Assembly: GCF_000013385.1 (NCBI RefSeq) | Contig: NC_007760.1 | Location: 4,686,001 to 4,750,000 of the forward strand | Origin: Anaeromyxobacter dehalogenans 2CP-C | GTDB taxonomy: Bacteria > Myxococcota > Myxococcia > Myxococcales > Anaeromyxobacteraceae | Direction: 5' to 3' | Length of the DNA stretch: 64,000 bases | Shown here: positions 35,816 through 40,239 of the stretch, piece by piece | How the letters are laid out: every line of letters begins with the position of its first letter | Numbering within the stretch: position 1 is the first letter of the stretch | Position numbers and translations under genes: made by a program | Notes under the pieces: model-generated | Databases searched by the model: none | Told to the model about the DNA's origin: nothing | What the model saw: the letters and a program-made list of their open reading frames with translations, nothing else

Positions 35816-37105
35816 ATGACCGCTCGCGACCCCCGCCCATCTCCGGCCGCGCCCACCGAGGCGGAGCGGCGCGTCGCGGGCGTCGCGTGGGAGGCGCTCG
35901 CGGGCACGGGCCCCGGGCTCGGGCCGGAGCTCGACGAGGTGCTCGCCGGCGGCGCGGCGGAGCGGGCCGTGACCCGCGCGCTGCGGGCCCGGCCGGCGCT
36001 CGACGCGGCCGGGCGCGCCGCGGTGGCCGAGGCGATCTTCGGCGTGGGGCTGTGGCGGCGCCGGCTGCGCGCGCAGCTCGGCGATCCGCGCGCGCCGCCC
36101 GCGCTGCTGCTCGCGGCCCTGCTGCGCGACCTCGGCGGCCGCGAGGCGGGCGCCTCCGAGGCGCTCGCCGGCCTGCCGCCCGGCGCGCTCCCGCCGCCGC
36201 GCCCGCCGCCGGCCGCGCGCGCCGACCGCTTCTCCCTGCCGGCCTGGCTCGACGCCGAGCTCGCCGCGGCGGCCGGCCCGGACGCGGACGCGCTCGCCGC
36301 GGCGCTGTGCCTGCCCGGCCCGGTGGCGCTCCGGGCGAACCGGCTCCGCGCCGGGCCTGCCGCGCTCGCCGCGCGCCTCGAGGCCGAGGGCGTGCGCACC
36401 CGGCCCGGCGCGCTCGCGCCCGCGTGCCTGGTGGTGGAGGGCCCGCGGCCGAACGTGTACGGGCTCGGCGCCTGGCAGGAGGGGCTCTTCGAGGTGCAGG
36501 ACGAGGGGAGCCAGCTCCTCGGCGAGGCGGTGGGCGCGCGCGCCGGGGAGGCGGTGCTCGACGCGTGCGCCGGGGCCGGCGGGAAGACGCTCCTGCTCGC
36601 CGCGGCGGTGGGCGCGGCGGGGCGCGTGCACGCCGCCGATCCGGACGCCGGGCGGCTGGTGCGCCTCCGGACGCGCGCGCTCGCCGCGGGCGCGGCGCGC
36701 ATCGTGGCGGTGCACGGCGCCGCGGCGCCGGCGGAGCTCCGGGTGGATCGCGCGCTGGTGGACGCGCCCTGCTCCGAGCTGGGCGCGCTCCGCCGCGGGC
36801 CGGACCTGCGCTGGCGGCTCGACCCCGCCGCGTTCGCGGCGCTCCCCGCGCTGCAGGCGCGCATCCTGGAGCGCGCCGCGGCGCACGTGCGCCCCGGCGG
36901 CCGGCTGGTCTACGCGACCTGCACGTTCCGGCGCGCCGAGGACGAGGACGTCGCCGAGGCGTTCGAGGCGGCCCACCCGGAGTTCGCGCGCGCGGCGCCG
37001 GACGCGCCCGCGAGCACGCTCACCCCCGACGGCTTCCTGCGGACCTGGCCGCACCGCCACGGCACCGACGCGTTCTTCGCGGCGGCGTGGGTGCGGAGGG
37101 GATAG
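35816..37105 (+). CDS. rsmB: 16S rRNA m5C967 methyltransferase family (RsmB/NOP2-like)
   Basis: A 429-residue RsmB-type protein. The N-terminal NusB-like half is Ala-rich (residues about 15-130). The methyltransferase half has FEVQDEGSQLLGEAVG near residue 224 and the SAM-binding DACAGAGGKTLLLA near residue 248. VDAPCSELGALRRGPDLRW near residue 318 holds one catalytic Cys. YATCTFRRAEDEDV near residue 363 holds the second Cys. It should form 5-methylcytosine in 16S rRNA. The N-terminal half is divergent, so exact target specificity is inferred. Confidence 0.87.
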   Translation: MTARDPRPSPAAPTEAERRVAGVAWEALAGTGPGLGPELDEVLAGGAAERAVTRALRARPALDAAGRAAVAEAIFGVGLWRRRLRAQLGDPRAPPALLLAALLRDLGGREAGASEALAGLPPGALPPPRPPPAARADRFSLPAWLDAELAAAAGPDADALAAALCLPGPVALRANRLRAGPAALAARLEAEGVRTRPGALAPACLVVEGPRPNVYGLGAWQEGLFEVQDEGSQLLGEAVGARAGEAVLDACAGAGGKTLLLAAAVGAAGRVHAADPDAGRLVRLRTRALAAGAARIVAVHGAAAPAELRVDRALVDAPCSELGALRRGPDLRWRLDPAAFAALPALQARILERAAAHVRPGGRLVYATCTFRRAEDEDVAEAFEAAHPEFARAAPDAPASTLTPDGFLRTWPHRHGTDAFFAAAWVRRG

Positions 37106-37115
37106 GCGGAGCGCG

Positions 37116-37529
37116 CTACCTGGCCTTCGCCGACCGCGCGGCCAGCAGCTTCGCGCCCCCGTGCGCCTCGAGCGCCACCTCCAGCGCCCGCGAGTAGTCG
37201 GGCCGCGCGCCCTCGAGGCGCGCGCGCCCTCGCTCGGTCAGCACCGTGTACACGCCGCGCTTGTCGTCCGGGCACAGGTCGCGGACCGTGAGGCCGCCGC
37301 GCTCGAGCCGCTCGACCATCCGCGAGACCGAGCTCTGGTTCAGGCCCAGCTGCGCGGCCAGCTCCTGCATGCGCAGCTCGGAGTCCGGCGCTCGCGCCAG
37401 CAGCTCGAGCGCGCGGAACTCCGTCAGCCCGAGCCGGTGGCGGGCCTGCAGCACCTTGCCCAGATCGGCCTCGACCTGGGCCACGAGCTGGACCAGCTCG
37501 AGCCACGCATCGCCTCGCCTCGACGTCAC
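37116..37529 (-). CDS. MarR-family transcriptional regulator
   Basis: A 137-residue winged-helix protein. The N-terminal dimerisation helix is followed by a helix-turn-helix (LRMQELAAQLGLNQSSVSRMVERLERGGL, residues about 53-81, spoken of as two segments). The wing reads DKRGVYTVLTERGRARLE. It starts at GTG 37529 with GAGGAG upstream. It lies downstream of two SMR transporter genes on the same strand, and a TGCATG-CC-CATGCA palindrome sits 45 bases before its start. It is therefore the likely repressor of this transporter operon and of itself. Confidence 0.88.
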   Translation of the reverse strand: MTSRRGDAWLELVQLVAQVEADLGKVLQARHRLGLTEFRALELLARAPDSELRMQELAAQLGLNQSSVSRMVERLERGGLTVRDLCPDDKRGVYTVLTERGRARLEGARPDYSRALEVALEAHGGAKLLAARSAKAR

Positions 37530-37551
37530 CGGCGCGCGCTCCTCTCGGACG

Positions 37552-37566
37552 GCATGCGTCGCATGC
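37552..37566. promoter_or_regulatory. Weaker palindrome upstream of the MarR gene
   Basis: GCATGC-GTC-GCATGC, an imperfect relative of the three 14-bp palindromes in this operon, lies 23 bases upstream of the MarR start codon. It may be an additional binding site. Confidence 0.4.
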
Positions 37567-37573
37567 TCTCACG

Positions 37574-37587
37574 TGCATGCCCATGCA
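37574..37587. promoter_or_regulatory. Operator candidate upstream of the MarR gene
   Basis: A perfect TGCATG-CC-CATGCA palindrome in the 80-base gap between the first SMR gene and the MarR gene. The same 6-2-6 palindrome occurs twice at the operon promoter, at 38427 and 38475. It is a likely regulator-binding site for autoregulation. Confidence 0.7.
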
Positions 37588-37609
37588 AGCAACGAGGCGG
37601 GCGCGCCCG

Positions 37610-37993
37610 TCAGGCGCGCGCCCCGGGCCCGTCCGCCCTGGCCCGGTCCGCCAGCTTCAGCCAGACCACGCCGGCGATGATGACCGCCAGCCAGAACGCC
37701 TGGACCGGCGTCAGGGGCTGGTCGAGCAGGACGCCGCCGAGGATCGCCGCGCCCACCGAGCCGATGCCGGCCCACACCGCGTAGCCGATCCCCACGTCGA
37801 TCGTGCGCAGGGCGACGCTCAGCGCGTACAGCGTCAGCAGGAAGAACACCCCGGCGGAGATGGACCAGCCCGGCACGGTGAACGCCCTGCTGCCGGCGAC
37901 GCTCAGGGCGTAACCGATCTCGAAGGCCCCCGCGAGCAGCAGCATGAACCACGCGCGCCCATTGCCCCCGTTCGTCTCGTTCGTCGTCGTCAC
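37610..37993 (-). CDS. SMR-family multidrug efflux subunit
   Basis: A 127-residue four-helix SMR protein with a short hydrophilic N-tail (TTTNETNGGNG). The key Glu is in LLLAGAFEIGYALSV near residue 25, and GIGYAVWAGIGSVGAA near residue 74 is family-typical. It starts at GTG 37993 with GGAGCGAG upstream. It lies 52 bases downstream of a second, different SMR gene. Paired SMR genes usually encode a heterodimer that exports cationic drugs or guanidinium-like compounds by proton antiport. Substrate not deducible. Confidence 0.9.
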   Translation of the reverse strand: MTTTNETNGGNGRAWFMLLLAGAFEIGYALSVAGSRAFTVPGWSISAGVFFLLTLYALSVALRTIDVGIGYAVWAGIGSVGAAILGGVLLDQPLTPVQAFWLAVIIAGVVWLKLADRARADGPGARA

Positions 37994-38045
37994 GTCTCGC
38001 TCCTCGTGGAAGATCTGGAAGGGATTGAAGGATGGCCGCTGCCGG

Positions 38046-38366
38046 TCAGGCGGCGCCGCTGAGCCGCAGGCCCACCACGCCGCCGATGACGAGCAGGATC
38101 CCGAGGAGCTTCTGCCAGCCGAGTCGCTGGCCGAGGAACATCGCGCCGAGGACGACGACCCCCACGCCCGCGACGGACGTCCAGATCGCATAGCCGACCC
38201 CGACGTCGAACGTCAGCAGCGCCAGGCTGAGGAAGAAGGTGCCGATCGCGCCGCTGACGAGCGTGGCCGTGGTCCACCACGGTCGGGTGAAGCCTCGTGC
38301 GTTGCCTGCGGAGATGGCCACCGCGATCTCGAAGATCACGGCGACGCCGAGATGGATCCAGCTCAT
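38046..38366 (-). CDS. SMR-family multidrug efflux subunit (partner)
   Basis: A 106-residue SMR protein without an N-terminal extension. The essential Glu is in HLGVAVIFEIAVAIS (residue 13), and DVGVGYAIWTSVAGVGVVVLG near residue 54 is diagnostic. ATG 38366 is the first gene after the operator-bracketed promoter at 38440-38468. Together with the following SMR gene it likely forms a hetero-oligomeric pump. The leader between promoter and start is about 65 bases. Confidence 0.91.
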   Translation of the reverse strand: MSWIHLGVAVIFEIAVAISAGNARGFTRPWWTTATLVSGAIGTFFLSLALLTFDVGVGYAIWTSVAGVGVVVLGAMFLGQRLGWQKLLGILLVIGGVVGLRLSGAA

Positions 38367-38426
38367 GTGGGTGACCCCTGGGTCGTTCGGTTCAGGACCG
38401 CGGCGACGGGCGCCGCGTCATGCTGT

Positions 38427-38440
38427 TGCATGCGCATGCA
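38427..38440. promoter_or_regulatory. Operator candidate overlapping the SMR operon -10/+1
   Basis: A perfect TGCATG-CG-CATGCA palindrome at the downstream edge of the -10 hexamer of the minus-strand promoter. Binding there would block transcription initiation. Confidence 0.75.
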
Positions 38441-38468
38441 TTTATCTGCGGCGCGGCGAGGCCGTCAA
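38440..38468 (-). promoter_or_regulatory. Sigma-70-type promoter of the SMR-MarR operon
   Basis: On the minus strand, TTGACG (38468-38463) is followed by a 17-base spacer and ATAAAT (38445-38440). Both hexamers and spacing fit a housekeeping promoter, unusual in such GC-rich DNA. The promoter is bracketed by two identical-type 14-bp palindromes. Confidence 0.72.
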
Positions 38469-38474
38469 GCCCTT

Positions 38475-38488
38475 TGCATGTGCATGCA
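38475..38488. promoter_or_regulatory. Operator candidate just upstream of the SMR operon -35
   Basis: A perfect TGCATG-TG-CATGCA palindrome six bases upstream of the -35 hexamer. It lies 48 bases centre-to-centre from the palindrome at 38427, on the far side of the promoter. Confidence 0.72.
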
Positions 38489-38556
38489 TCGACGAGCGCC
38501 GATCTCCGCCGGCCCCGGGGGGGGCGGCGGGGATCGGGCCTCGGGGCCGCGGCTCG

Positions 38557-40239
38557 CTAGAGGTCGGTGCTCCGCAGCACGGCGCCGTTCGCCGCGTTCG
38601 TGACGAGGTGCGCGTAGCGGCGGAGCCAGGACGAGCCGGGATCGCGGCGCTTCGGCCGGAACCCCTCGCGGCGCCGGGCCAGCTCGGCGTCGGAGACGTC
38701 CACCGTCAGCGCGCGCGCCGCCACGTCGATGGTGATCCGGTCGCCGTCCTGCACCAGCCCGATCACGCCGCCCTCGGCGGCCTCGGGGGAGACGTGGCCG
38801 ACGCAGGCGCCGCGGGTCGCGCCGGAGAAGCGGCCGTCGGTGACGAGCGCCACGCTCTCGCCCAGGCCCATGCCCATGATGAGCGAGGTGGGGGAGAGCA
38901 TCTCCTGCATGCCCGGCCCGCCCTTCGGCCCCTCGTAGCGGATCACCACGAAGTGCCCGGGCTTCACCTTGCCGCCCATGATCCCGGCGATGGCCTCGTC
39001 CTGCGAGTCGAAGCAGATCGCCTCGCCGGTGAACGTGCGCATGGAGGGCTGGATGCCGGCGGTCTTCACCACCGCGCCCTCCGCGGCCAGGTTCCCGAAC
39101 AGCACCGCCAGGCCGCCCACCGGCGAGTACGCGTTCTCGAGCGGCCGGATGAGCTCCGGGTCGGCGGTCCGCGCGCCGCGGATCCGCTCGCCCACGGTCT
39201 CGCCGGTCACGGTGAGCGCGTCCTCGCGGACGATGCCGCCGCGGCGGGCCGCCTCGCGCAGCACCGCGGGCACGCCGCCGGCGCGGTGGATGTCCTCCAT
39301 GTGCACGGTCGCGAGCGACGGGGCGATCTTCGCGATGTGCGAGACCTTGCCGGCGATCTCCTCGATGTCGCGCAGCGACAGCGGCGCCCCGGCCTCGCGC
39401 GAGATGGCGAGCATGTGCAGCACGGTGTTGGACGAGCCGCCCATGGCCATGTCCACCACCATGGCGTTGTGGATGGCGTCGCGGTTCACCAGGTTGCGCA
39501 GCCTGAAGCGCTCGTCGGCGGCGATCTCCACGGCGCGGCGCGCGGCGCGGCGCACCAGCGCCTCGCGCTCCGGGGTGAGCGCGAGCACGGTGCCGTTGCC
39601 GGGCAGCGCCACGCCCATGGCCTCGCACAGCACGTTCATCGAGTTCGCGGTGAACATGCCGGAGCACGAGCCGCCGGACGGGCAGGCCTGGCACTCGATC
39701 TCGTACAGCTCGGCGTCGGTGATCTGCCCCTGCGCGCGCTTGCCCACCGCCTCGAACGCGGTGTTGAGGTCGATGGGCGTGCCGTCGTGGAGGTGGCCCG
39801 CCTTCATGGGCCCGCCGGACACGAACACGGTGGGCACGTTCACGCGGAGCGCGCCCATGAGCATGCCGGGGACGATCTTGTCGCAGTTCGGGATGCAGAC
39901 GAGCGCGTCGAGCTGGTGCGCGTTCATCACCGTCTCGATCGAGTCGGCGATGAGCTCGCGCGAGGGCAGGCTGTACCTCATGCCCTCGTGGCCCATGGCG
40001 ATGCCGTCGTCCACGCCGATGGTGTTGAACTCGAACGGCACCCCGCCGGCCTTGCGGATCTCGTCCTTCGCGATCCGGCCGTACTCCTGCAGGTAGTAGT
40101 GGCCCGGGATGATGTCGATGTGGCTGTTGGCGATGCCGATGAACGGCTTCTCGAAGTCGCCGTCGTTCAGGCCCGTCGCGCGGAGGAGGCTGCGGTGGGG
40201 CGCACGCTCGAAGCCCTTCTTGATCCGGTCGCTGCGCAT
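38557..40239 (-). CDS. ilvD: Dihydroxyacid dehydratase
   Basis: A 560-residue IlvD/Edd-family dehydratase. It starts [19 protein letters not shown]. Cluster and Mg ligands are in [15 protein letters not shown] near residue 117, with a conserved Cys, and [20 protein letters not shown] near residue 188. [12 protein letters not shown] lies near residue 465 and [12 protein letters not shown] near residue 488. It dehydrates dihydroxy-isovalerate and its methylvalerate analogue in valine/isoleucine synthesis using an Fe-S cluster. The ATG 40239 has AGGTGGG upstream. Length is typical. Confidence 0.95.

Follow-up and report, generated by a model that had tools for sequence, protein, structure and literature searches.

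The smrA-smrB-marR genes of Anaeromyxobacter dehalogenans 2CP-C, located on the minus strand of the window analysed here (a stretch of 64,000 nucleotides), constitute what is, as judged from sequence, a MarR-controlled efflux operon, a known kind of system with unusually clear predicted operators. The reading that we favour, with a probability of about 0.9, is that the operon is autoregulated, with the encoded MarR probably acting as its repressor through three palindromes (O1, O2 and O3) and with a ligand or a modification of Cys86 relieving the repression. The novel part is the link of this MarR-SMR system to an uncharacterised gene cluster of its relatives.

Genes, promoter and palindromes of the operon

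The sequence-only reading had described a MarR-SMR operon. An operon of regulator and pump is indeed present, to which our analysis adds that the pump is encoded by two SMR genes in tandem and that marR is the last gene. The operon lies downstream of ilvD (38557–40239), and the convergent rsmB gene lies beyond marR. Its elements are the following:

37116–37529, minus strand: marR, MarR-family regulator of 137 aa with a GTG start (Pfam MarR_2, E 2.2e-12; MarR, E 1.2e-10)
37574–37587, no strand: putative operator O3, exact palindrome TGCATGCCCATGCA between smrB and marR; a site is found there in 45/51 co-directional loci
37610–37993, minus strand: smrB, second SMR subunit of ~127 aa with a GTG start at 37993 (Pfam PF00893, E 2.2e-16)
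38046–38366, minus strand: smrA, SMR transporter subunit of 106 aa with an ATG start (Pfam PF00893, E 4.8e-16)
38427–38440, no strand: putative operator O1, exact palindrome TGCATGCGCATGCA at the -10/+1 edge; its partner O2, 43–51 bp away, is kept in relatives
38440–38445, minus strand: -10 element ATAAAT, read from the sequence, 17 bp from the -35; a weak match alone, with its placement conserved in relatives
38463–38468, minus strand: -35 element TTGACG, read from the sequence; relatives keep TTGAC between their paired palindromes
38475–38488, no strand: putative operator O2, exact palindrome TGCATGTGCATGCA on the plus strand, upstream of the -35; 6 bp before TTGAC in 32/37 co-directional loci

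The encoded regulator scores well above the family thresholds for MarR_2 (47.4 bits, cut-off 27) and MarR (41.6 bits, cut-off 24.6), and its relatives in the PDB are MarR proteins. Both transporter proteins belong to the SMR family, with PF00893 scores of 60.6 and 59.5 bits (cut-off 23.7), and the PDB entries nearest to the smrA product are SMR structures including EmrE. The start of smrB was placed by comparison with relatives and by an upstream AGGAG. The smrA and smrB genes are adjacent here and in relatives, their products are 38% identical to each other, each carries the membrane glutamate motif, and they presumably act as a heterodimer; an smrA orthologue with 73–86% identity stands beside marR in proteobacterial relatives. 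The SugE model gave 56.9 and 50.2 bits where its cut-off is 126, and none of the named NCBIfam SMR subgroups reached its cut-off for either protein, the scores being far below; assignment to a known SMR subgroup was rejected on this basis. The arrangement of two adjacent, unequal SMR genes resembles that of EbrAB, YkkCD, MdtIJ and NepAB, but the present pair is linked to this MarR and, in relatives, also to DsbA/FrnE-like and guanine-deaminase-like proteins.

Read on the minus strand, the start of the operon is TGCATGCACATGCA-AAGGGC-TTGACG-GCCTCGCCGCGCCGCAG-ATAAAT-GCATGCGCATGCA. The -10 element ends in a T (38440) that is also the first base of O1, and 6 bp separate the end of O2 from the -35 element. 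Taken alone this is a moderate promoter (-35, 5/6; -10, 3/6) that falls below the threshold of a simple consensus scan. The hexamers by themselves are unremarkable; it is conservation in relatives that supports the promoter call. The proposal that a TTGACG-17-ATAAAT promoter is bracketed by two palindromes 48 bp apart thus describes this sequence exactly, and the bracketing is itself conserved. No Rfam match was found in the leader, and a riboswitch there was accordingly rejected.

Exact copies of TGCATG-NN-CATGCA start at positions 37574, 38427 and 38475 of the window. The three perfect palindromes within 1 kb, one before marR and two at the operon start, are therefore where the sequence-only reading had put them. 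They are also the only exact matches in the whole genome, a single contig of 5,013,479 bases, in which ~0.06 would be expected from a first-order Markov estimate based on the composition of the window and scaled to the genome; the reversed pattern, used as a control, had no match in the same 5,013,479 bases. Three further places in the genome match with one mismatch. An additional inverted repeat (GCATGCGTCGCATGC) lies at 37553–37567, in the interval from O3 to the start of marR. One congener retains it and a second does not; we did not count it as an operator.

Conservation of the sites and rival explanations

A scan of species genomes for relatives of the MarR protein yielded 80 other loci, with 56–85% identity. 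SMR genes are present within the fetched 5 kb in ~70 of these 80 loci, and the pair lies just outside in 4 more. The geometry of the sites was compared in a set of 80 loci comprising the window, two congeners and 77 fetched loci, with a pair defined as palindromes 42–52 bp apart with no more than three mismatches in total. Such a pair, with observed separations of 43–51 bp, was found in 48 of the 80 loci and in none of 160 shuffled loci, a comparison made among non-independent relatives at loci found by seeds inside MarR. Loci with the pair come from Alpha-, Beta- and Gammaproteobacteria and from Myxococcota, and sites of this type, more loosely matched, also lie beside marR in actinobacterial loci. 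Of 37 co-directional loci, 32 have the start of TTGAC precisely 6 bp beyond the upstream palindrome. The gammaproteobacterial loci have a divergent gene order, in which the sites remain at the promoter adjoining marR and TTGAC starts 2 bp after the upstream palindrome (9/11).

The O3-position site of co-directional loci usually lies between TTGA, which is -35-like, and TACATA, which is -10-like. In relatives its right half is mostly CATACA rather than CATGCA, as this position would explain. The TTGA and TACATA of relatives are not kept in Anaeromyxobacter and no good promoter can be seen around O3, which makes a separate role of O3 less sure in this genome.

The sequence-only reading had named a random genome-wide scatter of the palindrome as the outcome that would count against it. 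We find the motif confined to the operon here, and in 23 genomes of relatives, with 0–4 exact motifs per genome, 38 of 48 occurrences are in this operon. Most of the 10 off-operon occurrences are, as judged by eye, inside unrelated genes (carB-like, cas1-like, a transporter, an NRPS gene), with 2 or 3 possibly intergenic. A wider regulon is unsupported, as these ten sites share no function and most are intragenic. Because the sites are confined to the operon here and nearly so in relatives, and their layout is conserved beside the same genes, the predicted repression by the encoded MarR through its cognate palindromes is very likely.

The earlier suggestion that this repression might be cooperative or looped fared less well. 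Two strong sites 48 bp apart, and three within less than 1 kb, would suit a looped or strictly cooperative MarR with O1 and O2 on the same face of the helix, a sub-case of the main reading whose likelihood overlaps with it. The O1–O2 spacing, however, varies between 43 and 51 bp, most of a helical turn, so that no fixed face-to-face arrangement is conserved, while the distance from O2 to the -35 is fixed at 6 bp. The constraint therefore seems to be promoter geometry and not helical phase, and looping is possible but not favoured; we regard it as unlikely.

Short palindromes are bound by many regulators, and another cellular protein might bind these, with the neighbouring marR being incidental. 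We consider this improbable, as the sites, here and in relatives, are scarcely found away from loci with this MarR, they track it across classes and through changes of gene order, and the same second regulator would be needed in many unrelated genomes. That the palindromes are chance occurrences, repeats or hairpins without regulatory meaning is very unlikely: the genome has as many as 127 places that match with two mismatches, and an inverted repeat may function as an RNA hairpin, but the whole-genome count and the reversed control reject a chance origin, the position of the sites is conserved across classes, and neither a terminator nor an Rfam family was found at them.

Probable repression by MarR and a candidate sensing residue

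In the mechanism that we propose for MarR, a dimer would bind the 14-bp palindrome TGCATG-NN-CATGCA. Occupation of O1, at the -10/+1 edge, and of O2, upstream of the -35, would keep RNA polymerase off the smrA-smrB-marR promoter by occlusion, and binding to O3 would reduce transcription into marR, giving extra negative feedback. A ligand, or modification of the invariant Cys86 in the wing, would then release MarR and the paired SMR exporter would be induced. Of this scheme we infer that MarR binds and represses, that the two SMR proteins form a heterodimer, and that there are an inducer and an exported substrate.

The recognition helix LNQSSV[ST]R (here LNQSSVSR) and the wing RDxCPxDKRGVYTV are nearly invariant in the orthologues, and other myxococcal MarR proteins have neither. 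Residues 49–56, 71–78 and 89–96 served as search seeds, so that conservation there is biased, while Cys86 and LNQSSVSR lie outside the seeds. All 80 orthologues have Cys86, in most of them as the sole cysteine, as in this MarR. In OhrR-type thiol sensors a reactive cysteine at an N-terminal place is oxidised, which releases the DNA. The cysteine of the present MarR differs from that of OhrR in position, being in the wing; Cys86 is a candidate sensing residue, with thiol sensing by this MarR purely hypothetical.

Efflux operons autorepressed by MarR proteins include E. coli marRAB and emrRAB and Pseudomonas mexR-mexAB-oprM. The operon described here is like these systems, as generally known, in that a winged-helix MarR is encoded with a drug exporter, palindromes lie over its own promoter, and there is negative autoregulation, which here we infer. 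It is unlike them in that the exporter is a paired SMR, the 14-bp operator differs, marR comes last, and the putative operators sit on the outer sides of the two promoter elements. In literature outside subscription papers we found no description of this system, either for the MarR-SMR combination or for the operator sequence.

Origin of the operon and the wider gene cluster

The MarR protein is encoded in 3 of 9 congeneric genomes. The rsmB-ilvD gap is ~40–250 bp in five congeners without it, as against 1.46 kb here, and the operon (window 37105–38557) appears as an insertion separating the convergent genes rsmB and ilvD. In a tree of MarR proteins, which is based on few columns and is unsure in its finer branching, the Anaeromyxobacter sequences belong to a ten-member group that also contains seven proteobacterial sequences and is supported (95/92). 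Since rsmB and ilvD adjoin in the five congeners that are without the operon, the operon was probably acquired horizontally, from a proteobacterium, the alternative being loss of the operon in the other congeners.

The genes around the pump differ among relatives. In many alpha- and betaproteobacteria the operon consists of frnE/DsbA-like, smrA, smrB, guanine-deaminase-like and marR genes. In marine gammaproteobacteria (Vibrio, Halomonadaceae, Alteromonas) and in a Kitasatospora the same MarR is encoded divergently from a larger, NRPS-like cluster, and several of these genomes have the paired palindromes at the divergent promoter. Its composition and positions are:

Nine genes: adenylation enzyme, carrier protein, ectoine-synthase-like cupin, acyl-CoA-dehydrogenase/transglutaminase fusion, DsbA/FrnE-like protein, SMR pair, guanine-deaminase-like protein and arylmalonate-decarboxylase-like protein
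Positions in fetched loci: L152, 2915–9810; L153, 2096–9060; L154, 1761–8577; also in L110

The adenylation gene encodes an amino-acid-adenylating enzyme. The ectoine-synthase-like cupin passes its NCBIfam threshold (144 bits, cut-off 128), and the acyl-CoA dehydrogenase, which is fused to a transglutaminase-like domain, is nearest to prolyl-carrier dehydrogenases, at scores below their cut-offs. The cluster is thus whole in Vibrio, Halomonadaceae, Alteromonas and the Kitasatospora, is represented by its FrnE-SMR-SMR-deaminase part only in many alpha- and betaproteobacteria, and by pump and sensor only in Anaeromyxobacter. In one Vibrio (L105, 3672–4598) the adenylation gene is shortened, to 308 from ~500 aa, with intact pump genes downstream, as if biosynthesis were decaying and resistance kept.

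We found no description of this nine-gene cluster in literature outside subscription papers. An arylmalonate-decarboxylase-like gene, eutA, is named in an ectoine utilisation cluster (PMC3187862), a parallel that hints at, and proves nothing about, an ectoine-like cyclic compound. We tentatively propose, at somewhat less than even odds, that the MarR-SMR cassette belongs to this undescribed biosynthetic cluster, providing export, resistance and sensing, and that MarR senses the product of the cluster, possibly via Cys86.

In this system the repressor, its exact predicted operator and its target promoter can be read directly from the DNA and are conserved over several bacterial classes, so that a result for one MarR would bear on a whole family of regulators. 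The link to the cluster suggests a purpose for the pump and offers a route to its substrate, which may be the cluster product or a similar compound.
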